Below, piece after piece: positions 5,465-23,343 of a stretch of DNA of 36,562 nt. Each line of letters begins with the position of its first letter. Position 1 is the first letter of the stretch. The notes beneath the pieces were generated by a model. That model saw only the letters and a list, made by a program, of their open reading frames with translations. It made no database searches and was not told where the DNA came from. The DNA comes from Candidatus Firestoneibacteriota bacterium (GTDB lineage: Bacteria > Oederibacteriota > D2-FULL-39-29), in contig CAITEH010000024.1 in the NCBI GenBank assembly GCA_903891415.1, positions 1 to 36,562 on the forward strand, given 5' to 3'. A program made the position numbers and the translations under genes.

Positions 5465-6343
5465 TTATTTTTCCTGAAGCAGCTTTTTGGAAAGAGCTTC
5501 AAGGCCGTCAATCAGGCGCGGGCCGGCCCGCAGCAGTATATCCGGATCAAGATCATCATAGATCCGGCCTTCCTTAACGGCAGAAATACTTCCCCAGCCG
5601 GACCGCCCGGCGATCTCCTGCTTCATCTTGCCTTTTTTTTCCATATAAGCGGTAATTATTATATCGGGGTCTCTTTTAATTATCTCCTCTCCGCTGATCT
5701 CCGGAAAGGTCTTATCGGTTTCGGAAAAAATATTGATACCGCCGGCAAGCGTAATAAGCTCCTGGACAAAAGACCCTTTTCCGGCCGTAGTAAACGGCTG
5801 GTTCCATATTTCAAAATATACTTTCGGTTTTTTATTGCTCCGGGCTGCCGCGGTTTTTACCTTTTCTATTCTTGCCTTTAGTTTCTCTATATATAAAAGC
5901 GCAACGGTTTCTTTTCCTGTGGCCCGGCCTATCTGCGTAATGTCTTTAAGCAGCTCATTAATATTTTTGGGATAAAACGTAAGCGTTGGAATGTTCAGCG
6001 CGGAAAGTTTTAGGGCCAGGTCTTTTTGCACCCCTCCGCCGGCAAGTACCAGATCCGGCTTTAAAAAAAGTATTTTTTCAAGATTAGGCGCCATAAAATC
6101 CCCGATTTTTTCTTTTTTCTTTGCGGCGGCCGGAAAATCACAGAAGCTGGAAACTCCGGCAACTTTTCCTTCCAGCCCCAGCGCGAAAAGTATTTCCGTA
6201 TTGCTTGGCGCCATAGAAATTATTCTTCCGGGTACGGCAGGGATCACGGCGGCAAGGCCGGCATCATCGGTCAGTGTTACCGGAAAATCGGCGCAAAAAA
6301 CTAAAGAAACCGGTAAAAGAACGGCAAGTATTTTATTACGCAT
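5465..6343 (-). CDS. btuF: BtuF-like periplasmic corrinoid-binding protein of an ABC importer
   Basis: 292 residues with an N-terminal signal peptide (MRNKILAVLLPVSLVFCA), so it should be periplasmic. It belongs to the helical-backbone metal-receptor family (BtuF/FepB/FhuD). The stretch SMAPSNTEILFALGLEGKVAGVSSFCDFP matches the BtuF signature more closely than siderophore binders, and the KPDLVLAGGG strand and the C-terminal lobe (IIKRDPDIIITA, WGSISAVKEGRIY) follow. BtuF hands cobalamin to BtuCD. BtuD is at the right edge of this window, about 30 kb away, so the importer genes are split. There is no Shine-Dalgarno before the ATG; the -10 element ends 6 nt upstream, which predicts a leaderless transcript. 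A heme or siderophore ligand cannot be excluded. Confidence 0.8.
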   Translation of the reverse strand: MRNKILAVLLPVSLVFCADFPVTLTDDAGLAAVIPAVPGRIISMAPSNTEILFALGLEGKVAGVSSFCDFPAAAKKKEKIGDFMAPNLEKILFLKPDLVLAGGGVQKDLALKLSALNIPTLTFYPKNINELLKDITQIGRATGKETVALLYIEKLKARIEKVKTAAARSNKKPKVYFEIWNQPFTTAGKGSFVQELITLAGGINIFSETDKTFPEISGEEIIKRDPDIIITAYMEKKGKMKQEIAGRSGWGSISAVKEGRIYDDLDPDILLRAGPRLIDGLEALSKKLLQEK

Positions 6344-6349
6344 ATAAGT

Positions 6350-6377
6350 ATTTTACTCTTCGCAAGGAGTTTTTCAA
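6350..6377 (-). promoter_or_regulatory. Predicted leaderless promoter of btuF
   Basis: Minus strand: TTGAAA (6372-6377), 16-nt spacer, TAAAAT (6350-6355), then 6 nt to the ATG at 6341-6343. No ribosome site fits between the -10 and the ATG. Confidence 0.55.
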
Positions 6378-6447
6378 GGGTAATTTGGAGCTGCTCATGT
6401 TACGGTTATCCTTGTGTTTCGCGGCGCTCGGGAATCCCAAGCTGTTG

Positions 6448-6480
6448 AAAAAGAAAAACCCCGCGTCTTGCGACACGGGG
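6448..6480 (-). terminator. Rho-independent terminator after rplU-rpmA
   Basis: On the minus strand a 9-bp stem (CCCCGTGTC with GACGCGGGG, one G-U pair) closes a GCAA tetraloop and is followed by TTTTTCTTTTT. The wobble pairs only on the minus strand, which fixes the direction. It begins about 20 nt after the rpmA stop. Confidence 0.85.
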
Positions 6481-6500
6481 TAGGTTTTTCATTACGGATA

Positions 6501-6749
6501 TTACTGTTGTGCCTGCGGGATAATATTAATTTTATTCCTGGTAAATTTCACGATACCGGAAACCTTGGCAAAGATCGTATGATCCGACCCTTCGCCGGCA
6601 TTGATACCGGCAACAAAAGTTGAACCGCGCTGTCTTACTATAACACTGCCTCCGGAGACAAGCTCGCCGCCAAACGCTTTAACGCCCATGCGCTGGCCCC
6701 GGCTGTCCCTGCCGTTTCTGGATGTACCACCCGCTTTTTTACTTGCCAT
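6501..6749 (-). CDS. rpmA: 50S ribosomal protein L27
   Basis: 82 residues. The N-terminus [16 protein letters not shown] is the L27 hallmark and reaches the peptidyl transferase centre of the large subunit. [17 protein letters not shown] and the [12 protein letters not shown] stretch complete the family pattern. There is no cleavable N-terminal extension of the Firmicutes type, so the protein begins at the mature end, and no Prp protease gene sits between L21 and L27. It lies 16 bp after rplU with GGAGACAGGAG upstream and ends at a terminator, so the two genes form a bicistronic unit. Confidence 0.97.
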
Positions 6750-6765
6750 ACTGTTCTCCTGTCTC

Positions 6766-7077
6766 CTAAACTTCTATTTTAGTTATTTTTAATCTTGTAT
6801 ACTGCTGCCGGTGCCCGATGGTCTTTCTGTACTGTTCCGTTTTTCTGTATTTGAAAACACGGAGTTTTTCGCCTTTTACTTCTCCGATCACTTCCGCAAA
6901 TACCTTAACATCCTTAAGGACCGGCTTGCCGACTTTTACTTTATCGCCGTCAACAGCCATAAGCACCTTATCCATCGTGCATTCTTTGCCTTTGGTTTCT
7001 ACCTTTTCAACATTAAAAATATCGCCTTCTTTGACCTTGTACTGTTTGGCTCCTGATTCAATTATCACATACTTCAT
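6766..7077 (-). CDS. rplU: 50S ribosomal protein L21
   Basis: 103 residues from the ATG at 7075-7077, the standard L21 length. [19 protein letters not shown] matches the usual L21 start, and the C-terminal [19 protein letters not shown] is the conserved 23S rRNA-binding segment. An in-frame ATG 45 nt upstream would add 15 residues not found in L21, and the strong GGGGAGGAG ribosome site sits just before 7077, so the shorter start is preferred. First gene of the rplU-rpmA unit. Confidence 0.96.
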
Positions 7078-7112
7078 GTTGGAACTCCTCCCCGATAAAA
7101 AACGTAAGTATA

Positions 7113-7142
7113 ATACTACCAAAAAGAGGGCCTATTTGTCAA
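7113..7142 (-). promoter_or_regulatory. Promoter of rplU-rpmA
   Basis: Minus strand: TTGACA (7137-7142), 18-nt spacer, TAGTAT (7113-7118). The transcript would start near 7105, leaving a leader of about 28 nt that carries the Shine-Dalgarno. That is too short for a ribosomal-protein leader element. Confidence 0.65.
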
Positions 7143-7253
7143 CCTGAAAGCGCCGGGAATAAAAAGAATATCCTGAAAAATGCCAAACCCTGTTTTTATA
7201 AGGATAATCCCGGATATGTTTGCAGTTAAGCCCCTTTTGGACAAAAAGGAACC

Positions 7254-7283
7254 TTGCAAAAACCATCTCTCTTGTTTTAAAAT
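7254..7283 (+). promoter_or_regulatory. Predicted leaderless promoter of the methyltransferase gene
   Basis: TTGCAA (7254-7259), 18-nt spacer, TAAAAT (7278-7283), then exactly 6 nt to the ATG at 7290. No Shine-Dalgarno is present. It is divergent from the rplU promoter. Confidence 0.5.
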
Positions 7284-7289
7284 AGAACT

Positions 7290-8207
7290 ATGGAATGTTT
7301 GATCTGTAAAAATAAGGCGGAAAAAAGCTTTCTCTGCGAAGTGCGGCTTCTGGAAAAGCCGGTGCACAGGCTGGTTTCCTGCACGGAATGCGGGGCCGCT
7401 TTTTTTGAACCGCCGCCTTCACTCTTCGAGCTTGAAGAGTTTTATGGGAACACCTACTATGACTTTGATAAATACCGTGATGAATACTCGGGCGGGCTTC
7501 TGGCGGCAAAACTAAAGAGAATTTCACAAAAAGGCCGGTTTCTTGATATTGGCTGTTCCACGGGACATTTTCTGAAAGGCGTTCAAACTAAAAGCGGGTG
7601 GGAGGTTTCCGGCACGGAATTTTCCAAAAACGCAGTTGCCTACGCAAAAGAAAAACTCGGGCTTGAAGTAAAACACGGGGATCTGATTAAGGCGGGCTTT
7701 CAGGAAAACTATTTTGATTATATAAGAATGAATCATGTTCTGGAGCATGTAACAGGCCCTGTTTCCTTTTTAAAAGAGATCTACAGGATCTTAAAACCCG
7801 CCGGCACTTTTCAGTTGATGCTGCCGAACGGCAAGCTGGACCTGGCCCTGCTAACCCGCTTTTACAGGGAAGAAAAGACGGCGCCTAAGAGCAAGGACGG
7901 GCATATCTTTTTTTTCCCGGACAGGACCCTGCTCCTGCTGCTTGAAAAGGCGGGATTTAAAATTCAAAGCACAAAAACCTGCAGCGTTTCCCGGGGTCTA
8001 AAAATTTCCGGTTTTCTTCCTTTAAATAAAGATTGGAAGGACGCCTACTGTCTGACAAAAAAAGAAGCACAAAAAGAATTTAACAGCGGAGCAGGAAAGA
8101 TTCATTCAGGGTTTTATTATCGTTACAGGCATTTTATGAATAATTCCAAAAATATTCCCGGGCTTCACGCCTTTGGCCTGGATTATCTGGTCCTAGCCGG
8201 GAAATAG
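7290..8207 (+). CDS. Class I SAM-dependent methyltransferase with N-terminal zinc-ribbon-like motif
   Basis: 305 residues, cytosolic. The N-terminus has two CxxC pairs (Cys3/Cys6 and Cys31/Cys34) likely to hold zinc. The SAM-binding core follows: motif I FLDIGCSTGHFL (about 83-94), the acidic residue after the next strand (SGTEFS), and MNHVLEHVTGPVSFLKEIYRILKPAG, typical of Methyltransf_11/23-type enzymes with sugar, lipid or quinone substrates. A C-terminal domain of about 100 residues follows. The layout resembles zinc-ribbon methyltransferases of cell-surface polysaccharide loci, but no such locus surrounds it. It is a single-gene unit that converges on the secreted-protein gene (5 bp between stop codons). 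Substrate unknown. Confidence 0.85.
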   Translation: MECLICKNKAEKSFLCEVRLLEKPVHRLVSCTECGAAFFEPPPSLFELEEFYGNTYYDFDKYRDEYSGGLLAAKLKRISQKGRFLDIGCSTGHFLKGVQTKSGWEVSGTEFSKNAVAYAKEKLGLEVKHGDLIKAGFQENYFDYIRMNHVLEHVTGPVSFLKEIYRILKPAGTFQLMLPNGKLDLALLTRFYREEKTAPKSKDGHIFFFPDRTLLLLLEKAGFKIQSTKTCSVSRGLKISGFLPLNKDWKDAYCLTKKEAQKEFNSGAGKIHSGFYYRYRHFMNNSKNIPGLHAFGLDYLVLAGK

Positions 8208-8212
8208 AGCCG

Positions 8213-10138
8213 TTAATAACCTTTCTCTTTGAACTCCAGCTTGATCCCGCCGTATTTTGATATATCCTGCCGGTTGACCGTGACTTTTTTTATCGCCCGG
8301 GTGTTTTTTGTTATGCTTATTACCGCCTTGAATTTATCCGGCGGCGGGGTTTCCATATCAATATTAAAGACGGCGTTTTTCTCGTCGTAAGCACATTTAA
8401 AAACTTTGAACCAGGAGTTTGTTTTGATGGAATTCAACACCGGGTTTGAAGGCCAGTTGGAAAGCTGTATCTCTATCTTCCGCTGGGGGTTGGAGGATAA
8501 AGTCGCATTCGGACCGGAAGAAGCGGCAGTTCCCGCTAAATTCAGGGGCGGAACATCGGCTTCAGGTATATAGAGCAGCCTGGAGTTGACCGGCTGGCCG
8601 TCCAGAAGTATCCTGTCTATATATTTACCTTCATTTGAATAAAAAATATCAAGAGTATTGCCTTTATGCCTGAAATTAAAAATATTCCTGAATTTATAAA
8701 AGTCAAAAGGCTGAATATAAAGGTTACCCCTGGTAAAATCCAGCCCGCTGCTTTTAAAATACATATCCATATAGGCCATAACTTCAAAAAGCGTCCGTTC
8801 TTTAGGATTAGAAGTAAAAGGAAGCTCTTTTTCAAAGAAAGCCGGAATAAGCCCTTTAATATCGAATTTTGCAAGCAGGTCGAGAATAAAGAAAATTTCC
8901 GGATATTTAAGCTCTTTATGATTAAGCAGTTTCTTTGCTTCCGTCTCAATACTCTTCGGACTCTCTCCGTTCACAAGCATATAGAGGACCTTTTGTTCAT
9001 CCTTAATTTCAGCGCTTTCTTTGAGTTTTACCGGTATATAATCAGGTTTTTTTCCTATTAAGGACCCTGCCCATTCCAACACCAGCTGGTTGTACAGCTC
9101 CAAAACCTTGTTTTCCGGCTTTGAATAGCTCTCACCGTTTGAGACAGCTGTTTCCAGATATTTAATATTCCCCGTAAATTCATAGGCTTTCCAGTAGAGC
9201 CAGGGGGCGGCTTTTTCTACGGTAAGTTTTTTTAATTTTTCTTCAAAAATATATTTGGCAGCAAACTCAGAAAATTCTTCCCGGCGGTAACTGTTAAAAA
9301 GCATATAAGCCGTCTGGTAATATTTTCTTGTTGAAACATCGGTATTATAGATACGCGGGATATTTGAGAGTAATTTATTATAAAATACTTCCTTTTCCGC
9401 GGCCTGTTCGTAAATATTTTTTCCGGCGGCAATACCCGCCGCGGTTACCGCCGACCGGGCATCAGCAGCGCAGGCCGCCCCGAAATTTACAACGGCGGCG
9501 GAGCCCGCGGGGATATTTAATCCCGCTATTATCCTGTACCTGTCATTCTCCTGCACAAAGGATATTTCGCTTAAAATTGTTCTGTCAAAAACCACGGCGA
9601 GCGCGGAAAACCCCGCAGTCTGCGGGCAGGTCACCGTTACGCTTTTTTTCGAAATTGAATCCTCCGGAATAATAGCGGTTCCTTTCGCGTAAAATATTAT
9701 TTCCTGTTTCCACGGGGAAGTTCCGGAATTAGACAGCACCGCCGTGCTGCCCGCCGTTTCATTATTGATAAAGGCCGTGAGCATTTTTATTTTCTTATCT
9801 TCTTTGAACTGGCATTCGCTTTCAAGTTCATTGGGACGCCAGAGAATTTCCTTAAAAGGATTGAGCTCTTCAAAACCTTCGGTGCGGAGCCGGATAGAAC
9901 AGAAGGGATCGGTCTCGGTTTCGTTTAAAAAAACTGCCAGCGGGGAAAAACCAAACGCCGGGGAGTAGCCCTTTAAAAAAAATTTTGAGTCAGGAAGCCC
10001 CACAGGGCAGGCCGTATCAGGCAGGTCCCTGTAGGTAAGCCATAAATGATAAGTTACCAGCGCCCGGTCGCGTTCCTCGCAGTTCCCGGGCAGCAGCAGC
10101 CCCGCGCATAAACTAAGGATTATAAGGCAACGACGCAT
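8213..10138 (-). CDS. Large exported protein of unknown function, end of alr-lpx operon
   Basis: 641 residues with an N-terminal signal peptide (MRRCLIILSLCAGLLLPG), so it is exported to the periplasm or beyond. I do not recognise the family. The first third looks beta-rich (ILWRPNELESECQFKED, MLTAFINNET), the middle (about 230-450) is helical with repeated Trp/Tyr helices (APWLYWKAYEFTGNIKYLETA, LYNQLVLEWAGS), and the end is beta-rich again. This order resembles secreted glycosidase-type proteins with an alpha/alpha barrel, but no catalytic motif can be named. The start overlaps lpxI by 19 bp, so it is translated with the lipid A and alanine racemase genes, which hints at an envelope role. 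Function is not assigned. Confidence 0.6.
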   Translation of the reverse strand: MRRCLIILSLCAGLLLPGNCEERDRALVTYHLWLTYRDLPDTACPVGLPDSKFFLKGYSPAFGFSPLAVFLNETETDPFCSIRLRTEGFEELNPFKEILWRPNELESECQFKEDKKIKMLTAFINNETAGSTAVLSNSGTSPWKQEIIFYAKGTAIIPEDSISKKSVTVTCPQTAGFSALAVVFDRTILSEISFVQENDRYRIIAGLNIPAGSAAVVNFGAACAADARSAVTAAGIAAGKNIYEQAAEKEVFYNKLLSNIPRIYNTDVSTRKYYQTAYMLFNSYRREEFSEFAAKYIFEEKLKKLTVEKAAPWLYWKAYEFTGNIKYLETAVSNGESYSKPENKVLELYNQLVLEWAGSLIGKKPDYIPVKLKESAEIKDEQKVLYMLVNGESPKSIETEAKKLLNHKELKYPEIFFILDLLAKFDIKGLIPAFFEKELPFTSNPKERTLFEVMAYMDMYFKSSGLDFTRGNLYIQPFDFYKFRNIFNFRHKGNTLDIFYSNEGKYIDRILLDGQPVNSRLLYIPEADVPPLNLAGTAASSGPNATLSSNPQRKIEIQLSNWPSNPVLNSIKTNSWFKVFKCAYDEKNAVFNIDMETPPPDKFKAVISITKNTRAIKKVTVNRQDISKYGGIKLEFKEKGY

Positions 10139-11684: not shown

Positions 11685-12775
11685 AAATAGATCCTTTTAA
11701 CATCTTTATGTATGCCGCATACGACAGAATAGGGTATAGTCCTGCATTTCCAGGCCATATCCCCGGCCGTCAGTGTTTCTTTTCCGCTCTTACCTATAAG
11801 GACCGCGGTATCCCCGGCTTTCACTTTTGCGTTATTTCCAAGATCCACCATGGTCAGATCCATGCAGACCCTTCCTGCAATACGGTATTTTTTCCCATTG
11901 ATAAGAACTTCTCCCCGGTTTGAAAGCAGGCGGTTGTAACCGGCGGCATAACCAATTGCCAGAACGGCGATCCGTGTATTTTTCCGGGTATAATAGGTGT
12001 TCCCGTAACTTATACTGCTCCCTTTTTTTACATTCTTTACTTCAAGAACTCTTGTTTTCCAGGCAAGCGCAGGTTTAAGGCGTATTTTTTTTCTCTCTTC
12101 CTTGTTATTGTAAAGGCCGTAGAGCAAAAGGCCGGGCCTTACCATATCAAAGGCCGCGCCGGAAAAATTTATCACTCCGGAACTGTTTAAGATGTGTTTA
12201 ACCGCCCCCTCGGGCGCGCAATAGGCAGTAAACTCAAAATCGCTTATCTGCCTTAGCGTATAGCCCATATTATTATCGGAAGAGGCCAGGTGCGAAAAAA
12301 TCCCCTCTATCTTGATATTTTTAAACCCGGCTGTCCTGTTAAGAAATTTTTCAAAATCACAGGAATTGACCCCTAAACGGCCCATCCCGGTATCAATTTC
12401 AATATGTAGCTTCGCTGTCTTGCCCTGTTTTTTTGCTTCTTTGTCCAGGGCTGCAATAATACTTATATTCGAAACACTCTGACTTATATTGTATTTTACT
12501 ATGTCTTTTGCCTGAAACGGCAGAGCCGAAACGACATTAAGTATGGGTATCTTAATGCCCTGCTTCCTCAGGGATACGGCCTCTGAGATATCGCTTACCC
12601 CAAGAGAGTAAACTCCGTATGTCTGTAAAGCTTTTGCAACAGGAAAAAGCCCGTGCCCGTAAGCGTTATCTTTGATAATGGCGCAAATTTTCACACCTTT
12701 ATCAAGTTTTTTTTCAGCTTCCCCTATATTGTGCAAAATAGCTTTTATGTCAACTTCAACCCAGGCCTGGTCCAT
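11681..12775 (-). CDS. alr: Alanine racemase
   Basis: 364 residues, typical Alr length. It is a PLP enzyme that converts L- to D-alanine for peptidoglycan. The PLP lysine is Lys35 in IIKDNAYGHG (usually KANAYGHG). The second catalytic Tyr is in SYGNTYYTRK near residue 255, and GRVCMDLTMVDLG is the conserved C-terminal motif. First gene of the alr-lpxA-lpxI-exported-protein operon, so peptidoglycan and lipid A precursors are co-expressed. The -10 hexamer ends 6 nt before the ATG, so the operon mRNA is predicted to be leaderless. The restriction-modification island lies immediately upstream. Confidence 0.95.
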   Translation of the reverse strand: MDQAWVEVDIKAILHNIGEAEKKLDKGVKICAIIKDNAYGHGLFPVAKALQTYGVYSLGVSDISEAVSLRKQGIKIPILNVVSALPFQAKDIVKYNISQSVSNISIIAALDKEAKKQGKTAKLHIEIDTGMGRLGVNSCDFEKFLNRTAGFKNIKIEGIFSHLASSDNNMGYTLRQISDFEFTAYCAPEGAVKHILNSSGVINFSGAAFDMVRPGLLLYGLYNNKEERKKIRLKPALAWKTRVLEVKNVKKGSSISYGNTYYTRKNTRIAVLAIGYAAGYNRLLSNRGEVLINGKKYRIAGRVCMDLTMVDLGNNAKVKAGDTAVLIGKSGKETLTAGDMAWKCRTIPYSVVCGIHKDVKRIYL

Positions 12776-12781
12776 AGTCCT

Positions 12782-12809
12782 ATTATAACAAATAAAAGAA
12801 GTTTGTAAA
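12782..12809 (-). promoter_or_regulatory. Predicted leaderless promoter of the alr-lpxA operon
   Basis: Minus strand: TTTACA (12804-12809), 16-nt spacer, TATAAT (12782-12787), 6 nt, ATG at 12773-12775. The 6-nt gap is AGGACT. An AGGA 2 nt from the ATG is too close for a normal ribosome site. Confidence 0.6.
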
Positions 12810-12928
12810 GTTTTAAAGCGGGATTGTCAAGCCAAAGTAAGAATGGCCTGTTTTTATATTAGATAGTATAAACTGCTTTTTTTGCTTTTCAATAGACTAC
12901 GGATTAATTTTTTTATTATTTTTATAAT

Positions 12929-14020
12929 TTACTTTGCTATTATCAGGACTTCTTTCGAGCTTCCAGTACTCAAAACATATTTATAATCAAGTTTTTTTAC
13001 TTCGATGTTGTTTTTATATATTTTCAACATTTCTATCAATTCATTAATTGTTGGAGTACCATCGTCCCGGTAAGAAACAACCAAAATTGAATCCTGGAAT
13101 TTCTTAAATAGTTTTTTAAAGGCCTGATGTATTTCTCCTTTATTGCACCATTCATTTTTTCCATTTTTAATTTTTTTATGTTTAGAATTTTTATCAATTA
13201 AATTTGGCCATTGCTCATAAAATACAATACCTTCAAGAAAATGATAAAAATCAAAATAATTCACTCCTGAGCCCACTGTGGAAATATAGGGGGTATCAAT
13301 ATAAATTAAGTCTGCTTTAACACCTACTTCAAATATATCAGAATGGAAACTTCTATTTTTCTTTCCATTGTTAAAAACAGCATTATTTGCCTCTTCAACA
13401 AATCTTCTAAAATGATTATCAAATGGAGTATCCCAAGTTTTTTTATTACCAAAACTTCTTTTAACTTTCGCTGTCCGTATATACAAATTTTTTCTGTGAA
13501 ACAGGTTATACGGCCGTTTTATTATACACGCCTGAAATAAAGCATAATAAGCTAATGCTTGTTTGTATTTGTCTTGCACAAGCCTTATATTCGTTATTAT
13601 GACATCAAGCCATTTATTTTCTTCATCAGTAAAATATATATCGTGAAAAGTATCAAAAATAAATGTTGGATATTTAATATTTAAATGTTTTTTCAAGATA
13701 AAATTAACATCATTTTCATTCAGGATAATCTTAGAATTTTCAATTATGGCTAGTCCAATATAGTAATTAAATTTCAAAGAATCATTATAGAATACTTGTT
13801 TACGGTTTATTTTAAACATATAACTAACGCAGCCTGTGCCGCCAAACGCATCAAGAACAGAATTAAAACTCAAGTCCTTTGTATAATAATTAATCCAATC
13901 TATTATTTTATATTTACTTCCTTGGTAGCGCGTTGACGGTAAGACTCCAGTTTTGGCAGAGGGCAAATCGTTAAAAAGCTCTGATTGTTTTATTTTTGTT
14001 TTCATTGTGGCATTAAACAT
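12929..14020 (-). CDS. N6-adenine DNA methyltransferase (D12 class) of the EcoRV-like system
   Basis: 363 residues. The D12-class motif order is visible: YQGSK (32-36), the SAM-binding DAFGGTG (57-63), and the catalytic IDTPY (241-245, a variant of DPPY). Such enzymes methylate adenine N6 and protect host DNA. The start overlaps the end of the nuclease gene by 8 bp, so the two are translated together, nuclease first. The gene is visibly richer in A+T than its neighbours, with many AAA, AAT and ATA codons, which suggests recent transfer. Specificity is inferred from the nuclease. No Shine-Dalgarno is obvious, so an internal ATG at 14005 is a possible alternative start. Confidence 0.88.
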   Translation of the reverse strand: MFNATMKTKIKQSELFNDLPSAKTGVLPSTRYQGSKYKIIDWINYYTKDLSFNSVLDAFGGTGCVSYMFKINRKQVFYNDSLKFNYYIGLAIIENSKIILNENDVNFILKKHLNIKYPTFIFDTFHDIYFTDEENKWLDVIITNIRLVQDKYKQALAYYALFQACIIKRPYNLFHRKNLYIRTAKVKRSFGNKKTWDTPFDNHFRRFVEEANNAVFNNGKKNRSFHSDIFEVGVKADLIYIDTPYISTVGSGVNYFDFYHFLEGIVFYEQWPNLIDKNSKHKKIKNGKNEWCNKGEIHQAFKKLFKKFQDSILVVSYRDDGTPTINELIEMLKIYKNNIEVKKLDYKYVLSTGSSKEVLIIAK

Positions 14021-14798
14021 TTTCAGTATTTCTATATTTTAGATATTCTTTTAAGTTTCTATACGGCGGTTTTCGTAATTTTGCACTTCGGGACATTTCC
14101 GCAGTCATATAATTTATCCAAAAATCATCAAATATTTTTACACCTAATTCAGAGAATGGTCCCGTCCCTTCTTTTAATTCGGAAATTTTAACACAAGATC
14201 CAATATTTTTTGTGTTTCCGCTACCGGGGCGGTCTTTGGCAATTTTGTATTTTTCTTGAACAATAAAATCAAAATCTTTCACTACCGATAAGATTTCCTC
14301 CAGGTCATCTATTGAATAAACCTTATTTTCATCAATACGGTCTTCTTGTTGAGTATATATAACACCTAAAATGTAATGCTTGCTGTATTCTTTATAAGGG
14401 AAAGTGATATTTTTCTTTGAATCTCTGTAACGAAAATAACCAGTAAATGCGCCAAGTGTAAAACCGGAAACAATATCATTATTTTTTCGATAAGTGCTTT
14501 TTAAATCAAGAGCTATCTTCTTTTTATCTTTTGTTATGAAAGTAACATCGGGATAATGATATTGTTCTTTACAAAAATCCATTTTAAAGTTGTTCTCTTT
14601 TGCAAATTTCTGCAAAACAGGAAACATCATCAATTCGATTATTTTTGAAACAACTTTTGTATCAATGGAAATTGTATAAATATTTTTTGCAACATCAATA
14701 AAACCTTTAACTGACCAATCACCTGATGGCATTGCTAAAATTTTACGAAAGTCTTCTGTGTGTTTCAATAAATTATTTTGAAAATCATCTGATTTCAT
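14013..14798 (-). CDS. Type II restriction endonuclease, EcoRV-like (predicted GATATC)
   Basis: 261 residues against about 245 in EcoRV. Similarity to EcoRV is recognisable along most of the length. SIDTKVVSKIIELM contains the equivalent of Glu45 (here Glu55). HYPDVTF holds the first catalytic Asp (Asp84), and IALDLKSTY holds Asp98-x-Lys100; these match EcoRV Asp74, Asp90 and Lys92. The recognition loop GSGNTKNIGS (192-201) is nearly identical to the EcoRV loop that reads GATATC, so the same site is predicted. A ribosome site (AAGGA) precedes the ATG. It overlaps the methyltransferase gene downstream, and the locus is AT-rich. The nuclease appears intact, with no stop or frameshift. Confidence 0.9.
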   Translation of the reverse strand: MKSDDFQNNLLKHTEDFRKILAMPSGDWSVKGFIDVAKNIYTISIDTKVVSKIIELMMFPVLQKFAKENNFKMDFCKEQYHYPDVTFITKDKKKIALDLKSTYRKNNDIVSGFTLGAFTGYFRYRDSKKNITFPYKEYSKHYILGVIYTQQEDRIDENKVYSIDDLEEILSVVKDFDFIVQEKYKIAKDRPGSGNTKNIGSCVKISELKEGTGPFSELGVKIFDDFWINYMTAEMSRSAKLRKPPYRNLKEYLKYRNTENV

Positions 14799-14864
14799 AG
14801 TTTCCTTATTAAATCCTTTGCTGCTTTAGATAGGTCCGTTTTGGCTTAATTCTGATATAATTGG

Positions 14865-14877
14865 TTAACAATGTTAA
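14865..14877. promoter_or_regulatory. Dyad upstream of the restriction genes
   Basis: TTAAC-AAT-GTTAA, a perfect 5-3-5 inverted repeat about 65 bp before the nuclease start, in the intergenic region. It could be an operator of the restriction operon. No controller-protein gene is visible, so this is only a candidate. Confidence 0.3.
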
Positions 14878-14980
14878 TAAATTGCATCTTTATTTTTTAA
14901 GGTATTTGCCTCCCGCAACTTAATACTACCAAAATATTTAGGAATGGTAAAGGGAAAAGAAAATGCTCTTTTTTACAGCT

Positions 14981-16162: not shown

Positions 16163-16203
16163 TTTCCCTCCTAAAAAGAAAATGACAAAGTACGATATAT
16201 TGA

Positions 16204-16225
16204 AGGCGAAAAACGGGCTTCGCCT
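16204..16225 (-). terminator. Hairpin between cstA and the alcohol dehydrogenase gene
   Basis: A perfect 7-bp stem (AGGCGAA with TTCGCCT) and an 8-nt loop, about 35 nt after the cstA stop. There is no clear U-tract behind it, so it may be a processing or attenuation hairpin rather than a full terminator. Confidence 0.3.
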
Positions 16226-16259
16226 ATATTTATTTTCGTTTGGCTTTTAGCGGAGGTTT

Positions 16260-18050
16260 TTATCCGCTTACCTTATCCTGTCCCTTGTCATTTGTAATTC
16301 GTAATTGTTTTAAGATTTTTCTCATTGCTTCAAAAAATATTATGAGCACCAGCACCAGCATGACAATGGACAGGCCCGCGTTGAGCCAATTTTTTTTTGG
16401 CAGGTAATTAATAAAAATATTCATAAGCGCGGCTGTTACGGTGGTTACAAACATAAAAAGCGCGGGCAGAAAGGTTATGAGCGCGTACTTCCAGTTACCG
16501 GTATTATGAAATATATATACGGTCCCGAACGCCAGCGCCACGGTCGCGAGAAGTTGATTGGCCACTCCAAACATCGGCCAGATGGTGCTGATATCCCCCA
16601 TATAAACCAGATACCCCCAGGAAAGACTGATCACGCCGCCGGTAATAAATATTCCCGGCAGCCAAGAACCTGTTCCAAGTTTTTTATTAAAGGGCTTTAT
16701 GAGCTCCTGTAAGATATACCTGGCAACCCGGGTACCCGTGTCAACCGTGGTCAGGATGAAAAGCGCCTCAAACATGATCGCAAAATGATACCAGTAACCC
16801 ATCATAGCTTTCATACCGGGGATCGAAGAAAGTATCACCGACATGCCGGCCGCCAAAGATACGGCTCCTCCGGTCCGGCCGGCCAGGGTCTCCCCGACCA
16901 TTTTTTCTATTTCCGCCAGATACTGCGGGGTATAGCCAAGCGTAACAAAAACTTTTTCAGGAATGTTTATGGCAAAGTAATCCGCAGGTATAAGTACAGT
17001 TGCGGCAATGAGCGCCAGTATTGAAACTATCCCCTCCACCAGCATCGACCCGTAACCGATCAGGCGGATATCGGCTTCATTATTGATCATTTTGGGTGTA
17101 GTTCCCGAGGCCACCAGGCTGTGAAAGCCCGAGATCGCGCCGCAGGCTATCGTAATACAGACAAAGGGCCAGGCCTTGCCCGGAATTATCGGGCCTCCTC
17201 CGTTCATAAAATTTGTGAAGGCCGGCATGTGTATCACGGGATTGACCCAGAGAATGCCGAAACCCAGCATTACTATGGTGCCGATCTTCATATAAGAAGA
17301 AAGGTAATCTCTGGGGCAAAGCAAAAGCCAAACCGGAAGCACCGAGGCAATAAAGCCATACACGGGCAGAATTATTGAAAGCGCGGGTTTGGAAAGCAGG
17401 AACCATTTTCCAAATTCTGATTTTGAGACAGGCTCGCCCAGTATTACACCCAGCAGGACAAGAATAAAACCGATAATGGAGGCTTCCACAATTTTTCCGG
17501 GGCGTATCTTATACATCCAGAGAGACACAACAAGCGCCGCGGGGATCGTGACCGTAAGAGTAAAGGTTGCCCAGGAACTTTCATTAAGAGCGTTAACCAC
17601 CGCCAGAGCCAGACCGGCCAGAGCGGTTATTATAATAAATAGAACGGCAAAACCTGCCGCGACTCCGGCAGGTTTACTGACATATTTTGTAACCAGATTG
17701 GAAAGAGAAAGGCCGCTGTTCCTTACCGAGGCAAAAAGCACTACAACATCATGAACGGCTCCGGCCAGGACCGCGCCGATAAGGATCCAGAGATATCCCG
17801 GCAGGTAGCCGAACTGGGCGGCCAGTACCGGGCCGATAAGCGGACCCGCGCCCGAAATCGCGGCAAAATGATGGCCGAACAGGACCCATTTGTTGGTGGG
17901 ATGATAATCCCTGCCGTCCTTCAGATCATGCGCCGGAGTGGAATTCTTCTCATTAAATACAAGAACTTTGGTCATTATGAACTTGGCATAAAATCTGTAG
18001 GCCAGGGCGAAAACAAGCAAGGCAGTTATTAATAACGTAAGGGCATGCAT
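16260..18050 (-). CDS. cstA: Carbon starvation protein CstA-type transporter
   Basis: 596 residues with many transmembrane helices across the whole length, so an inner-membrane protein. The family pattern is clear: GRDYHPTNKWVLFGHHFAAISGAGPLIGPVLAAQFG near the N-terminus, FHSLVASGTTPKMI in the middle and TVDTGTRVARY later. CstA/BtsT proteins import peptides or pyruvate, often when carbon is scarce. The gene is shorter than E. coli CstA (about 700) but in the range of the BtsT/Gram-positive forms. It sits 55 bp after the GntR-type regulator. Its own -10 ends 6 nt before the ATG, which implies a leaderless message. Substrate is not predictable. Confidence 0.93.
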   Translation of the reverse strand: MHALTLLITALLVFALAYRFYAKFIMTKVLVFNEKNSTPAHDLKDGRDYHPTNKWVLFGHHFAAISGAGPLIGPVLAAQFGYLPGYLWILIGAVLAGAVHDVVVLFASVRNSGLSLSNLVTKYVSKPAGVAAGFAVLFIIITALAGLALAVVNALNESSWATFTLTVTIPAALVVSLWMYKIRPGKIVEASIIGFILVLLGVILGEPVSKSEFGKWFLLSKPALSIILPVYGFIASVLPVWLLLCPRDYLSSYMKIGTIVMLGFGILWVNPVIHMPAFTNFMNGGGPIIPGKAWPFVCITIACGAISGFHSLVASGTTPKMINNEADIRLIGYGSMLVEGIVSILALIAATVLIPADYFAINIPEKVFVTLGYTPQYLAEIEKMVGETLAGRTGGAVSLAAGMSVILSSIPGMKAMMGYWYHFAIMFEALFILTTVDTGTRVARYILQELIKPFNKKLGTGSWLPGIFITGGVISLSWGYLVYMGDISTIWPMFGVANQLLATVALAFGTVYIFHNTGNWKYALITFLPALFMFVTTVTAALMNIFINYLPKKNWLNAGLSIVMLVLVLIIFFEAMRKILKQLRITNDKGQDKVSG

Positions 18051-18056
18051 ATTTTT

Positions 18057-18085
18057 ATAATATCAAAAGCCGGCCGAATATTCAA
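18057..18085 (-). promoter_or_regulatory. Predicted leaderless promoter of cstA
   Basis: Minus strand: TTGAAT (18080-18085), 17-nt spacer, TATTAT (18057-18062), then AAAAAT and the ATG at 18048-18050. No Shine-Dalgarno is present. Confidence 0.6.
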
Positions 18086-18105
18086 GTGACGATAACAACC
18101 GTTTT

Positions 18106-19158
18106 TTAGCCCGCTTTGATCTCGGGTTTTATGGAGATAGCCTGATCCGGCAGTTTTCTGTTGGTTACAAGTGAATGGAGAAGATTTACGCTGACTTCGG
18201 CCATTTCTGTCTGTTGATAGACCAGGACGGGGAACGGATAGTAGGCCTCGCGCGGGCTGGAGCCTATTATCGCGAAATTTTCCGGAAATTTTTTTCGGTT
18301 CTCATAATAATAAGACAGGAAAAGTTTGAAAACTGCTTCATCGGTGCAAAAAATTCCGTCAATTTTTGAACTCAAGAGTTCTTTTATGTCCCGGGTCACG
18401 GAATCTCTTTCAAAACTGCTGTCTTTAACCAGAGATGCGTCAAAACCCAGGCCCCAATTCTTATAGATCTTTTTAAGGCCTTCTATTATGACCGGGGCTT
18501 GCGGGAGCTCTCCATACTCGCTTTTAAGCGGCCCGGTCAGAAGCCCCGGGGTCTTGCTTCCCATCCTTACCAGCTGTTCTCCCAGTATCTCTCCTGCGTA
18601 TTCGTAGTCGAACCCCACAGAGCTCGCCAGCTGCTCTTTATAAAGAAAATTCAAAAGAACAACTTTGATCCCTTTTTCTTTTAAGCCTGCCAGCGCTTTT
18701 AAGGGTATAGGCGAAGTAAGAATAACTGCTTTAAGCCCTTCCCGGAGGGCCATAGCAAGAAAGCCCTCTCCCGGAAGAAATTTTTCGCCGGAAGAAAGCG
18801 GGCAGTATTTTACGGTATATTTCAATTTTTCCGCGGAATCCCGGAGGACATTCAGGACATTAGAATAGTAGTATCTGCCGGCTATCTTTGCTTCCGGATA
18901 TACGATACCGAGTTCCCTTATCTTTCTCTCCGGAGAAAAAGGATTATCATTATCATAGATGAATATACCCCTGCCGCGGATCCTGAAAAGGTTGTTTTCC
19001 TGTTCAAGCTCTTTTAAGGCCGCGCGGATGGTTATCCTGGAAACCTTGTACTGTTCGGAAAGTTCCCTCTCGGTAGGTAAACGCCCTTCTTTATATTGCT
19101 TTTCAGCTATCTTTTGCTCAATATCCTGCTTAACTTTTTTGTATAGGAGATCTTTCAT
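18106..19158 (-). CDS. GntR/LacI-hybrid transcriptional regulator (AraR-like)
   Basis: 350 residues from the ATG at 19156-19158. The N-terminal 70 residues form a GntR winged helix (KKVKQDIEQKIAEKQYKEGRLPTERELSEQYKVSRITIRAALKELEQENNLFRIRGRGIFI). The rest looks like a LacI/periplasmic-binding effector domain (LGIVYPEAKIAGRYYY, LREGLKAVILTSPIP, IDGIFCTDEAVFKLFL). Proteins of this build usually sense sugars or sugar acids. An upstream in-frame start would add 14 residues outside the family and overlap the promoter, so the shorter start is used. Regulation of the adjacent cstA gene (55 bp downstream) is likely but unproven. Confidence 0.88.
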   Translation of the reverse strand: MKDLLYKKVKQDIEQKIAEKQYKEGRLPTERELSEQYKVSRITIRAALKELEQENNLFRIRGRGIFIYDNDNPFSPERKIRELGIVYPEAKIAGRYYYSNVLNVLRDSAEKLKYTVKYCPLSSGEKFLPGEGFLAMALREGLKAVILTSPIPLKALAGLKEKGIKVVLLNFLYKEQLASSVGFDYEYAGEILGEQLVRMGSKTPGLLTGPLKSEYGELPQAPVIIEGLKKIYKNWGLGFDASLVKDSSFERDSVTRDIKELLSSKIDGIFCTDEAVFKLFLSYYYENRKKFPENFAIIGSSPREAYYPFPVLVYQQTEMAEVSVNLLHSLVTNRKLPDQAISIKPEIKAG

Positions 19159-19164
19159 GCTATT

Positions 19165-19193
19165 ATAATACCGAATTAATTTTATAAAGTCCA
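19165..19193 (-). promoter_or_regulatory. Predicted leaderless promoter of the GntR-type regulator
   Basis: Minus strand: TGGACT (19188-19193, weak), 17-nt spacer, TATTAT (19165-19170), 6 nt, ATG at 19156-19158. Confidence 0.4.
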
Positions 19194-19251
19194 GAAGCAA
19201 AGCTTTTTAAGAAAGGAGCCAGTATACCGGGGCGCCGATTATCATTATTAA

Positions 19252-19338
19252 GACGCTATTGATCAGCTGAATTACGTAATTCCAGAGGATGAGTCATTTA
19301 TAAAAGAAGATCTTACAAAGCTTGTACTGATTATATAA
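19252..19338 (+). pseudogene. Possible coding remnant, 28 codons without a start
   Basis: Between the regulator and the first PilZ gene a plus-strand frame bounded by stops reads DAIDQLNYVIPEDESF and then IKEDLTKLVLII. It has protein-like composition but no start codon or ribosome site. It may be the tail of a decayed gene. The rest of 19201-19417 shows no gene. Confidence 0.2.
19269..19282. promoter_or_regulatory. Perfect 14-bp palindrome, candidate operator
   Basis: GAATTACGTAATTC, about 110 bp upstream of the GntR-type regulator gene. The length and symmetry fit a dimeric repressor site, but no second copy was found near cstA, so the link to the regulator is weak. Confidence 0.25.
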
Positions 19339-19417
19339 ACGAGCGGAAATCAAACTGCAGGTTTTATTTGTAATATCTTATTTTTAGGGGCTTCCGGAGC
19401 CCGGTATTGTTTCTATC

Positions 19418-19445
19418 TTGACAAACCGGAAAATATCGGTATAAT
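19418..19445 (+). promoter_or_regulatory. Predicted leaderless promoter of the first PilZ gene
   Basis: TTGACA (19418-19423), 16-nt spacer, TATAAT (19440-19445), AAAAGA, ATG at 19452. Both hexamers are perfect matches to the sigma70 consensus and no Shine-Dalgarno is present. Confidence 0.75.
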
Positions 19446-19451
19446 AAAAGA

Positions 19452-19829
19452 ATGCCGATGGAAAATAGAAGAAAACAAATGCGGGTCAGAGTTATGCTGC
19501 CGGTGGAAATTTATGATATTTTGAATAATAAAAGTTTTGTCGGCAAAATAGTGGATATTTCTTCCGGCGGCGTTTCTATTGTAACCCCGGAAGAGCTTAC
19601 CATTCAAACGCCCGTTTCTTTAACTTTCACCTTTGAGGATACTATCTATAAAAAGGTCCCTGCTGATATTGTCCGTGAAGAAAAAAAGCAAAAAGAGAAA
19701 TACCTGGGCAGCGCCTTTTTTGATCTGGACCCGCAAGCGCGGTCGCAGCTTGAAAATACCATTAAAAAGGTCCATTTAAAAAATTTAAAGGGCCTGCGAA
19801 AAGAAACTATCTATAACATTTACCGTTAA
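19452..19829 (+). CDS. Single-domain PilZ protein (copy 1)
   Basis: 125 residues, one PilZ domain and nothing else. Both cyclic-di-GMP contact motifs are present: RxxxR as Arg7-Lys-Gln-Met-Arg11 and DxSxxG as Asp35-Ile-Ser-Ser-Gly-Gly40. A YxxLNNK segment lies between them. PilZ proteins act as cytosolic cyclic-di-GMP effectors, usually for motility, adhesion or exopolysaccharide. It aligns without gaps for its first 115 residues with two paralogs at 21815 and 22261, which supports the chosen start. It is on the plus strand and converges on the TonB-dependent receptor gene. No motility genes are visible, so the target is unknown. Confidence 0.9.
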   Translation: MPMENRRKQMRVRVMLPVEIYDILNNKSFVGKIVDISSGGVSIVTPEELTIQTPVSLTFTFEDTIYKKVPADIVREEKKQKEKYLGSAFFDLDPQARSQLENTIKKVHLKNLKGLRKETIYNIYR

Positions 19830-19878
19830 CTGTTTGCTCCGGAAAGCCCTTCCCTCCTGCCTGCCAAATAATAGTTTT

Positions 19879-21603
19879 TTACAGCCTGAGTTTTATTCCC
19901 GAGGAAAAGGTGAGGCCCGGCTGGGGAATACCTTTTATTTCTTCATAAGCCGCATTCAACAGGTTTTGTCCTTCTATATATATGGTAACACCGCCTGCCT
20001 CTCTTAACAGCTTTAAGTTAAGCAGTGTATAGTCATTAACGCCTGCTTTTCTTTTATACAATATTTCCAGTTCCGGGGTAATTTCCAGTAACTCCGGGCC
20101 TTTAAATGAACATGAGGCCTGCGCGGCCGGATAAAGGAGGGCGTATTTTGAGTAATAATCAAGTTCCTTTTTCGCATAAATGAAGGAAGCGCCTGCAGTA
20201 AGCTCAACAAACACAAGGTTTGCCTTGAGCCCCCCTTCAATACCATACACACTTGCTTTTCCTATATTTTGCGCGTACCACTTTCCCGCGGGAGTGGCCC
20301 CCACCCAATCTATCAGGTTTGTTTCATCCCTTGCGTAGAGCGAGAGCTTTGCTGAAAGTTCATTGCAGCAAAAGTAATTTATTCCCAGGTCGTAAGAAAT
20401 TGCGGTTTCCGGTTTAAGCGCCGGATCCCCGAAACTCACCCCGTCGGAATAATAGAGTTCGGTAAAAGAGGGGCTTCTGAACGAGTACCCTGCTGAAGCC
20501 GCTAAAATAAGTTCTCTGCATAAAACATAGCGGAAAGCCAGTGCCGGCGCCAGGACCGGGCCCCAAGCCGAATTTTCAAACCTGAGTCCTGTATCTATTT
20601 TTATTTCTTTTGAGACCTCCCCGCTCAATTCCGTGAACAAAGCCTGCCGGGGCCGGTGGTGGATGCCAAGGCTGGAGCTATATATTTCCTCCTGCTCCAG
20701 TGAACCGCCGAAGATCAGCAAGTTGTTTTTATCGAACTTATAGGTTCCCTGAGCTTCCAGGCCGTAGTTATAAGAAATGTGCTCGTTGACAAAAAGCGAG
20801 GGCCTGGTCAGATCCAGCATAAAATTGTCATCATGCCGGCGGTAATGCGCGTTGAGCCCCAGGGTCATCTGCGTATTGAGTTCATTCTTGCTTCCGGTTT
20901 CGATAAAACAGGTTCTTGTAGATTCTTTTGAGGGAAAATTAAGCCCGGGAGTGTAAAAATCATAGGCGCCAAAGGTCTTGTCCATATAACCAAGTTTAAT
21001 AAAGGTTTGCCCGCCCGCGTATTTATATACGGTATTATTCAGAAACGAATAATTGGAAAAACCGGTATCATATCTATAGCCGTCTGAAACGGTACGCTGA
21101 AAGGACAGCTGTTCGCTTAGCCCGCCCCAGGCCTTTTCATAACCCAGTTCATAATTCTGAGTATTAAAGGACCCGTACCCGAACCCGAGAAGAATGTTTT
21201 CTTTCTGCGCTTTTCTGGTAATAATATTTATCACTCCGCCAAAAGCATCGGAGCCGTAAATAGAAGAGGCCTGTCCTTTTAAAACTTCTATTTTTTCTAT
21301 AGCCAGGACAGGTACAGGCAGATCCATATTGTGATGCGCCGTTTGAGGATCATTTACTCTCGTACCGTCAATTAGTATCAATATTTGCTGATAGGTCGAA
21401 CCACGAATGCTGATATCTGCCTGAGCGCCAAGAGGGCCCCGGGTTTGCAGATCAAGGCCCGGCAATTCTTTTAGCGCTTCCGGCACGGCTATCTCAGTTT
21501 TTGGATATACCTGTTCAAGTTCCCTGATGGCTGCTCCTGACCTTGTGCCGGTCACTATGACCGGGGCAACAGTATAAAGCTCTTCTTCTGCCGCGCCCGG
21601 CAA
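19879..21603 (-). CDS. TonB-dependent outer-membrane receptor (BtuB-like), unusual start
   Basis: 574 residues from a TTG at 21601-21603, plus a likely extension. The plug domain is clear: PVIVTGTRSG (TonB box region), ALKELPGLDLQTRGPLGAQ, ISIRGSTYQQILILIDGTRV and IEVLKGQASSIYGSDAFGGVINII. A 22-strand barrel follows, ending in an aromatic-poor KLRL. The frame continues upstream of the TTG and encodes a good signal sequence (KLFLAILYLTCLPGAA), but no in-frame ATG, GTG or TTG precedes it; an ATT at 21637-21639 would be needed. The protein resembles small BtuB/cobalamin or metal-chelate receptors. Its own promoter and a dyad lie upstream. It is flanked on both sides by PilZ genes. Confidence 0.88.
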   Translation of the reverse strand: MPGAAEEELYTVAPVIVTGTRSGAAIRELEQVYPKTEIAVPEALKELPGLDLQTRGPLGAQADISIRGSTYQQILILIDGTRVNDPQTAHHNMDLPVPVLAIEKIEVLKGQASSIYGSDAFGGVINIITRKAQKENILLGFGYGSFNTQNYELGYEKAWGGLSEQLSFQRTVSDGYRYDTGFSNYSFLNNTVYKYAGGQTFIKLGYMDKTFGAYDFYTPGLNFPSKESTRTCFIETGSKNELNTQMTLGLNAHYRRHDDNFMLDLTRPSLFVNEHISYNYGLEAQGTYKFDKNNLLIFGGSLEQEEIYSSSLGIHHRPRQALFTELSGEVSKEIKIDTGLRFENSAWGPVLAPALAFRYVLCRELILAASAGYSFRSPSFTELYYSDGVSFGDPALKPETAISYDLGINYFCCNELSAKLSLYARDETNLIDWVGATPAGKWYAQNIGKASVYGIEGGLKANLVFVELTAGASFIYAKKELDYYSKYALLYPAAQASCSFKGPELLEITPELEILYKRKAGVNDYTLLNLKLLREAGGVTIYIEGQNLLNAAYEEIKGIPQPGLTFSSGIKLRL

Positions 21604-21660
21604 GCAGGTAAGATATAGTATCGCCAGGAATAGTTTAATATTTCCCCCGTTCTTATTGTC

Positions 21661-21682
21661 AACCTATAATATAATTATAGTT
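21661..21682. promoter_or_regulatory. AT-rich dyad in the leader of the TonB-dependent receptor gene
   Basis: Arms AACTATAAT and ATTATAGTT (one extra C in one arm, 3-nt centre) lie between the predicted transcription start and the coding region. The position fits a repressor site for a metal- or corrinoid-responsive regulator, but it does not match a Fur box. Confidence 0.35.
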
Positions 21683-21691
21683 TACATATAA

Positions 21692-21720
21692 ATTATACCC
21701 CTTATTATTCTGTATTTCAA
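21692..21720 (-). promoter_or_regulatory. Promoter of the TonB-dependent receptor gene
   Basis: Minus strand: TTGAAA (21715-21720), 17-nt spacer, TATAAT (21692-21697). It gives a leader of about 45 nt with the dyad at 21661-21682. A second TTGACA (21657-21662) further in could drive a shorter message. Confidence 0.55.
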
Positions 21721-21814
21721 TTATTTTTGTTTTAATCAAAGCAGGTGGATTCTTTACCAGGAACTCTTTAAGAAAGGGGAAGTTGCAGGCCGGGAAAAAC
21801 ATCTAAAAATATAA

Positions 21815-22192
21815 TTAACTGTAAATATTATATATGGTCTCTTTCTGTAATCCCTTTATCTTTTTTGAATGTACTTTTTTTATTGCGTCTTCCAGCTGCC
21901 GTTTTGCTTGCGGGCTTAGATCGAAAAATGCGCTGCCAAAATATTTCTCTTTCTTTTTTTTCACTTCACGCACAATATCAGCGGAAATTCTCTTATAAAC
22001 GATATTTTCAAAGGTAAAAGTTAACGAAACAGGCGTATTTACCGGGAGCTCCTCCTCGGCAACTATGGAAACTCCGCCCATGGAAATATCCACCACTTTG
22101 CCGGTGTAATTTTTATTGTTTAAAATATCATAGATATACACGGGCAAATTGACCCGTACACGTTTTTGGTTTCTTTTATTTGTTATATCCAC
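21815..22192 (-). CDS. Single-domain PilZ protein (copy 2), GTG start
   Basis: 125 residues, paralog of the copy at 19452, with the same C-terminal ending ETIYNIY. Arg7-Asn-Gln-Lys-Arg11 and Asp35-Ile-Ser-Met-Gly-Gly40 preserve both cyclic-di-GMP motifs. The start is GTG (22190-22192). The DNA just upstream can be aligned base by base with the promoter-to-start region of copy 3 (shared ATATAAG, then -10, 6 nt, start codon, G), which fixes the start even though it is not ATG. No Shine-Dalgarno is present. It lies 68 bp after copy 3 on the same strand. Confidence 0.9.
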   Translation of the reverse strand: MDITNKRNQKRVRVNLPVYIYDILNNKNYTGKVVDISMGGVSIVAEEELPVNTPVSLTFTFENIVYKRISADIVREVKKKKEKYFGSAFFDLSPQAKRQLEDAIKKVHSKKIKGLQKETIYNIYS

Positions 22193-22198
22193 GGATTG

Positions 22199-22226
22199 AT
22201 CATGCTTATATAATTTTTGCTTTCAA
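22199..22226 (-). promoter_or_regulatory. Predicted leaderless promoter of PilZ copy 2
   Basis: Minus strand: TTGAAA (22221-22226), 16-nt spacer, CATGAT (22199-22204), 6 nt, GTG. The -10 is weaker than in copies 1 and 3 and looks like a degraded duplicate of the copy 3 promoter. Confidence 0.45.
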
Positions 22227-22260
22227 GTTAAGCGCCTTTTTCCCGAAATTTTTCCGGTAG

Positions 22261-22623
22261 TTATGTATTTTCGTTATGGAGGCCCCTCTTGATCTTTGAA
22301 TGGATCTTTCTTATCGTAAGATCAAGTTTATTCTGTGCCTGCGCATCCAGGTCAAAAAAAGCGATACCAAGAAACTGTTCATTTTGCTTTTTTTCCTCAC
22401 GGACCACATCGGCAGGGAGCCTTTTATAAACATTCTCTTCTATAGAAAAAGTCAAAGAAACAGGCGTATTAACGGGGAGTTCTTCAACGGTAACCATCGA
22501 AACTCCGCCCACAGAAATATCAATTATCCTGCCGGTAAAATTCTTATTATTTAAAACATCATAGATCTGAACCGGAATGTTAACCTTGACGCGCATTTGT
22601 TTTCTTTTGTCTTTCATCGCCAT
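22261..22623 (-). CDS. Single-domain PilZ protein (copy 3)
   Basis: 120 residues. Motifs Arg7-Lys-Gln-Met-Arg11 and Asp35-Ile-Ser-Val-Gly-Gly40 are intact. It is shorter than its paralogs because the ETIYNIY tail is missing and it ends KRGLHNENT. The ATG at 22621-22623 follows a near-perfect promoter by 6 nt with no Shine-Dalgarno. It is divergent from the HAD phosphatase gene (105 bp between start codons). The three copies probably arose by local duplication. Confidence 0.9.
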   Translation of the reverse strand: MAMKDKRKQMRVKVNIPVQIYDVLNNKNFTGRIIDISVGGVSMVTVEELPVNTPVSLTFSIEENVYKRLPADVVREEKKQNEQFLGIAFFDLDAQAQNKLDLTIRKIHSKIKRGLHNENT

Positions 22624-22629
22624 GGGATT

Positions 22630-22658
22630 ATTATACTTATATTTTCCGATACTGTCAA
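22630..22658 (-). promoter_or_regulatory. Predicted leaderless promoter of PilZ copy 3
   Basis: Minus strand: TTGACA (22653-22658), 17-nt spacer, TATAAT (22630-22635), AATCCC, ATG. Both hexamers are consensus. Confidence 0.75.
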
Positions 22659-22692
22659 GGGAGCCGCCTTACTTTGTGGCCTTACTTTGCTC

Positions 22693-22721
22693 TTGGAAAA
22701 CGGCCGCATTCGTGCTATTCT
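22693..22721 (+). promoter_or_regulatory. Predicted leaderless promoter of the HAD phosphatase gene
   Basis: TTGGAA (22693-22698), 17-nt spacer, TATTCT (22716-22721), 7 nt, ATG at 22729. Confidence 0.45.
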
Positions 22722-22728
22722 AACCGGC

Positions 22729-23343
22729 ATGAAAAACACTCTGCCTGTTAAAGCGGTTATTTCCGATCTCGGCCGCGTATTTATTGATTTTGACCACTCC
22801 ATTTCCTGCGGTAAAATTGCAAAACTTGCAGGCTGCGATATTGAAGAGGTGTATGATTTTATCTACCGGAATAAAATGGATATCAAGTTTGACCGGGGAG
22901 AAATAAGTCCTTATGCCTTTTTCAATAAAATAAAAGCGCGTTTTAAGCTGAGGATCTCTTATGGGGAATTTAAGAACATTTTTTCGCAGATATTCACACT
23001 AATTAAGCCGGTATATAACATTTACCGCAAGCTCAAAAAGAGATATAAACTCGTTTTTCTTTCAAATACCAATGTTATTCATTATGAGATCTGTCTAAAA
23101 ACAATGCCCCTTAAAGATATATTTGAAGGGGGCATTCTTTCCTACAAAGAAGGTATTATGAAGCCCCACCCGAGGCTCTATATGAAAGCCGTGAGTTTAG
23201 CCGGTTGCAAACCCGAAGAATGTGTTTACATTGATGACATTTTTGAATTCGTTGACGCGGCAAGGGCCTTGGGGTTAAAAGGTATAAGGTTCAAGTCAGG
23301 AAAACAACTTGAGCGCGAGTTAAAAATACTGGGAGTTAAATAA
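22729..23343 (+). CDS. HAD-superfamily hydrolase (subfamily IA, YihX-like)
   Basis: 204 residues, cytosolic. Motif I is SDLGRV (nucleophile Asp, with Gly instead of the second Asp, as is common in the DLGGV branch), motif II FLSNTN, motif III Lys in KPHPRLY, and motif IV YIDDI. A helical cap of about 70 residues lies between motifs I and II. Members dephosphorylate small phosphorylated metabolites. The frame is open back to 22597, but that segment crosses the divergent PilZ promoter, and the ATG at 22729 is placed 7 nt after a -10 element, so the shorter protein is chosen. Substrate unknown. Confidence 0.85.
   Translation: MKNTLPVKAVISDLGRVFIDFDHSISCGKIAKLAGCDIEEVYDFIYRNKMDIKFDRGEISPYAFFNKIKARFKLRISYGEFKNIFSQIFTLIKPVYNIYRKLKKRYKLVFLSNTNVIHYEICLKTMPLKDIFEGGILSYKEGIMKPHPRLYMKAVSLAGCKPEECVYIDDIFEFVDAARALGLKGIRFKSGKQLERELKILGVK

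Follow-up and report, generated by a model that had tools for sequence, protein, structure and literature searches.

Putative leaderless genes with a conserved -10-to-ATG spacing as a minority initiation mode in a Candidatus Firestoneibacteriota genome

A survey of 953 bacterial genomes detected leaderless genes of the TA-led type in 207 of them, spread over many phyla (Zheng et al. 2011, PMC3160421), and leaderless transcription is predicted for 21.6% of bacterial species according to the passage in which the StartLink paper cites Lomsadze 2018 (PMC9581028). In Deinococcus radiodurans, -10 motifs are located 6-7 bp before the open reading frames (Zhong et al. 2025, PMC12340547). The sequence-only reading of the DNA considered here had named Deinococcus and Actinobacteria as precedents; the pattern is known in both, but the 2011 survey makes this precedent too narrow.

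The genes described below share with those of Deinococcus-Thermus (PMC12340547) a TANNNT -10 element about 6-7 bp before the open reading frame, no Shine-Dalgarno (SD) site, a leaderless mRNA (predicted here) and misannotated starts; in Deinococcus about one third of the genes are of this kind and the -10 element alone can suffice, whereas here they make up about 5% of transcription-unit heads and mostly have a clear -35 element. The likeness to TA-led genes (PMC3160421) comprises a TAtaaT-type signal about 10 bp before the start, a medium GC content (45% in this genome), and a widespread, non-dominant occurrence; that survey covered genomes complete by 2011, whereas the lineage studied here is uncultivated. 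The leaderless transcriptome of Mycobacterium tuberculosis (Cortes et al. 2013, PMC3898074) offers a further parallel, i.e. a -10 promoter with transcription from the start codon, the latter again predicted here. What the present analysis adds to an already known class is a quantified minority mode and a spacing that is conserved at single loci.

The window, i.e. the whole stretch of DNA that was analysed, is the entire contig 24 (36,562 bp) of an assembly of 86 contigs (2.5 Mb, 86.7% complete). The 60 bases 5' of 33 gene starts in the window were printed and inspected. Pfam families matched the gene names (Peripla_BP_2, methyltransferase, alanine racemase, CstA, GntR, three PilZ, HAD); Rfam and tRNA scans gave no matches in the window, and a 16S gene was looked for in the assembly and not found. 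For the genome-wide test, genes were called with a simple hexamer-based script in 1.2 of the 2.5 Mb, sampled as the window and 60 other stretches. The relatives to which this test was extended include G001 (same genus), G005 (another family of the same order) and G018 (a distant member of the phylum). Start regions of the window genes were also set beside those of orthologues from as many as seven relatives.

Nine genes had been listed as leaderless-type in the sequence-only reading, and eight of them were confirmed by direct inspection, with a sigma-70-type -35 element, a spacer of 16-18 nt, and a TANNNT -10 element that ends 6 nt (HAD, 7 nt) before ATG (Table 1). The remaining gene, pilZ-2, starts with GTG and carries CATGAT where the -10 element would be; it was rejected because neither GTG nor TTG starts are enriched at this distance across the genome. 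The least certain of the accepted genes is gntR, for its poor -35 element and for an in-frame ATG 36 nt upstream in the congener G001. The leaderless-type promoters of pilZ-3 and HAD are divergent within 105 bp (22624-22728), and G001 has retained this arrangement together with the two spacings.

Table 1. Promoter-to-start regions of nine genes in the window (positions of the window; architecture as -35 element, spacer length, -10 element, linker length, start codon)
Gene	Extent	Strand	Architecture	-35	-10	Start codon
btuF	6341..6377	-	TTGAAA-16-TAAAAT-6-ATG	6372-6377	6350-6355	6341-6343
methyltransferase	7254..7292	+	TTGCAA-18-TAAAAT-6-ATG	7254-7259	7278-7283	7290-7292
alr	12773..12809	-	TTTACA-16-TATAAT-6-ATG	12804-12809	12782-12787	12773-12775
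cstA	18048..18085	-	TTGAAT-17-TATTAT-6-ATG	18080-18085	18057-18062	18048-18050
gntR	19156..19193	-	TGGACT (weak)-17-TATTAT-6-ATG	19188-19193	19165-19170	19156-19158
pilZ-1	19418..19454	+	TTGACA-16-TATAAT-6-ATG	19418-19423	19440-19445	19452-19454
pilZ-2 (not accepted as leaderless)	22190..22226	-	TTGAAA-16-CATGAT-6-GTG			
pilZ-3	22621..22658	-	TTGACA-17-TATAAT-6-ATG	22653-22658	22630-22635	22621-22623
HAD	22693..22731	+	TTGGAA-17-TATTCT-7-ATG	22693-22698	22716-22721	22729-22731

For the spacing test, a generic sigma-70 promoter was scored at each distance k that separates the -10 element from any in-frame ATG close to the predicted start, with the mean over k=12-60 as background. At k=6 and a score of at least 8, 26 genes were found in the 1.2 Mb of the genome itself against 4.82 expected (Poisson P 1.4e-11), and at a score of at least 10 there were 20 against 2.16; without the window, 19 genes remained against 4.59 (Poisson P 4e-7), and the claim of a genome-wide enrichment at this distance was thereby upheld. 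When the -10 element alone was scored, the count was 35 at k=6, and the remaining distances between 0 and 12 gave 6-18. The spike was also obtained in the congener G001 (12 vs 1.10) and, at k=5-8, in G005 of the other family (22 vs 7.6). There was no excess at out-of-frame ATGs at k=5-8 (16 in all vs 4.89 per distance), and no spike in E. coli K-12 under identical treatment (0 vs 0.67 at k=6). Plasmid 1 of D. deserti, used as positive control, gave 6 against 0.9 when scored by the -10 element alone, and no signal with the full -35/-10 score.

The signal is restricted to ATG: at this distance, 44 ATG starts were counted against 7.8 expected (three genomes pooled), compared with 1 against 2.2 for GTG and 3 against 2.8 for TTG. 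Mycobacteria have leaderless GTG as well as ATG genes, and differ in this respect from the genome described here. Across 45 genomes of the phylum (summed by hand), there are 215 instances of the exact pattern TTGACA-N16-18-TANNNT-N6-ATG and 102 of the version with N12; these counts divide into 45 vs 22 inside the order and 170 vs 80 outside it. They suggest that the leaderless-type mode is phylum-wide, although the distant G018 gave no significant result by itself in a 260-kb sample.

Once background is subtracted, the signal amounts to about 2-3% of genes and, among first genes (transcription-unit heads), to about 5%; a proportion of about 20% or more, as in a genome of the Deinococcus or Actinobacteria type, was not found. 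The proposal of two initiation modes holds in that both are present; with a leaderless share of only about 5% of heads, the window gives an inflated impression. First genes that match the automatic criterion are 9 of 24 in the window and 24 of 510 elsewhere (Fisher P 3e-6, for a window chosen post hoc), and one of the nine, inside a restriction-type gene near 14730, is probably spurious. A foreign origin of the contig was considered as cause of this richness and rejected, since the window has a tetranucleotide profile typical for its bin (r 0.990) and a single G001 contig holds counterparts of much of the locus. Leaderless candidates outside the window, as read from their translations, include rsmA, a yvcK-like gene, an ECF sigma factor, a nitroreductase, a ThiF-like enzyme and a transporter.

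Among single-copy orthologues of the accepted genes, all 20 cases have TANNNT 5-8 nt ahead of the corresponding ATG, compared with 1 of 36 for the other window genes (Fisher P 3e-14, with orthologues that are related and hence non-independent, and a gene set picked because the signal was present). The leaderless interpretation was supported by this comparison as well. For cstA, the distance is exactly 6 nt in six of six orthologues from two families; for alr, TATAAT is found at 5-8 nt in seven orthologues, down to 49% protein identity, and this linker varies in length, yet apparently within the range that would leave a leader of about 0-2 nt. The methyltransferase orthologues in G001, G002 and G004 have the -10 element at 6, 6 and 5 nt, respectively, the HAD orthologues in G001 and G004 at 7 nt, and the btuF orthologue in G003 has TATAAT 5 nt before ATG. 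The gntR orthologue in G001 has it at 6 nt, where the stretch upstream is also an open frame. For pilZ-3, a G001 relative (C107:31500) has TATAAT at 6 nt; for pilZ-1, contig C76 holds two paralogues with this promoter type, again at 6 nt, so that the presence of PilZ genes in the accepted set is partly a family effect.

Two further conserved promoters were observed. A TTGACA-TATAAT/TATACT promoter 6 nt before ATG is conserved in four genomes of the order's other family (G005:C60:30690-30727, G006:C277, G007:C196, G008:C195), in what looks like one orthologous gene. The leaderless-type promoter of an AAA-ATPase-like gene is identical letter for letter at G000:C71:14024-14061 and G002:C21:24222-24259; other orthologues between these two genera have 60-85% protein identity, and the identical promoter probably reflects recent transfer.

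Of the other explanations, the one that retains most weight, though very improbable, is that the true starts are elsewhere, either downstream in frame with an SD site or upstream, such that the genes have ordinary leaders. A second ATG is indeed nearby in some genes (pilZ-1, ATGCCGATG; pilZ-3, ATGGCGATG), and the upstream ATG of the gntR congener points the same way; however, the second pilZ ATG would give a 6-nt leader without SD, alignments with orthologues start at the proposed methionine for alr, cstA, the methyltransferase, gntR and HAD, and the distance spike refers to the proposed ATG.

Slightly less probable still is that transcription starts further upstream and the AT-rich hexamer acts in the mRNA as a non-SD ribosome site of the kind known from Bacteroidetes-type genomes; about 10% of bacterial species have AT-rich non-SD sites (PMC9581028). 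This was examined with TANNNT-6-ATG sites picked irrespective of a -35 element (n=48; own genome and G001). At least four of six matches to TTGACA were found at spacers 16, 17 and 18 in 17%, 42% and 15% of these sites, against 0-6% at most other spacers and 2-7% at spacers 16-18 for sites at k=0-3. Such coupling to a -35 element is needed by promoters only, and its presence in sites picked without it argues that the upstream hexamer is a promoter element and not a ribosome site. In addition, the other genes are dominated by SD motifs: an SD of at least 4 nt in range is present in none of 23 sites compared with 66% of other genes, with the limit that the -10 element itself fills part of the SD zone. 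A pyrimidine directly precedes ATG in 22 of 26 sites, compared with 44% for ATG starts overall; this is expected of a pyrimidine-purine initiator with A as +1. An extended -10 element (TGn) is frequent in the alr, cstA and HAD orthologues (e.g. TGCTATAAT).

Chance is the least probable explanation: AT-rich intergenic DNA often yields TANNNT near ATG, the window was singled out for having many and is an outlier in density, and the bare genome count of TATAAT-N5-7-ATG is barely above its control (134 vs 113, noisy), but the specificity of the spacing, with an excess that stays without the window, recurs in the congener and the other family, and is seen neither at out-of-frame ATGs nor in E. coli, already refutes it together with the retention of the -10 element in all 20 orthologues.

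We therefore consider it very probable that the mRNAs of these genes are leaderless and start at or within about 2 nt of AUG, as a minority mode beside the dominant SD mode. The promoter pattern, its narrow spacing, the restriction to ATG, the missing SD sites, the pyrimidine before ATG and the conservation within the order are computational results; the actual transcription start sites and the mechanism of translation are inferred. Ordinary housekeeping-sigma promoters would place the start of RNA polymerase on the A of ATG or no more than about two bases away: a 6-nt linker would make this A the +1 position, and linkers of 7-8 nt, as in some alr orthologues, would leave a leader of 1-2 nt. 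If the mRNAs are leaderless, translation must proceed without SD pairing, and the 5'-terminal AUG would presumably be recognised by 70S ribosomes or by IF2-loaded subunits, as is general knowledge for leaderless mRNAs. A more far-reaching reading, which we regard as unlikely but worth stating, joins two proposals: that a fixed gene set (cstA, alr, PilZ paralogues, gntR, methyltransferase, HAD and others) has long been kept leaderless in the order, and perhaps in the phylum, despite the dominant SD mode; and that this set would be a selected regulatory class, e.g. one favoured during starvation, and not a drifting property of promoters.

The leaderless reading would extend this type of initiation quantitatively to a bacterial lineage with a dominant SD mode, and a -10-to-ATG spacing conserved among orthologues may provide an RNA-independent route to spotting leaderless genes. 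In such genomes, automated annotation would place the starts of some genes wrongly. The long conservation at cstA and alr makes selection for leaderless expression of particular genes testable.

Two other features of the window concern a gene start and a gene pair. At the start of the first TonB-receptor gene (21588-21663, minus strand; open reading frame listed from TTG at 21603), no in-frame ATG, GTG or TTG was found before a signal-peptide-like stretch (IKLFLAILYLTCLPGAA); an ATT codon follows GGGGGAAAT, ATT-AAA with AGGGGAAAT is also kept in G001, and ATT is a possible start codon of this gene. Between alr and an iron-type alcohol dehydrogenase, DNA adenine methyltransferase-like and restriction-enzyme-like genes are located at 12929-14798 (minus strand); since alr and the dehydrogenase lie within one 4-kb locus in G001 and G004, the two genes look like an inserted restriction-modification pair.
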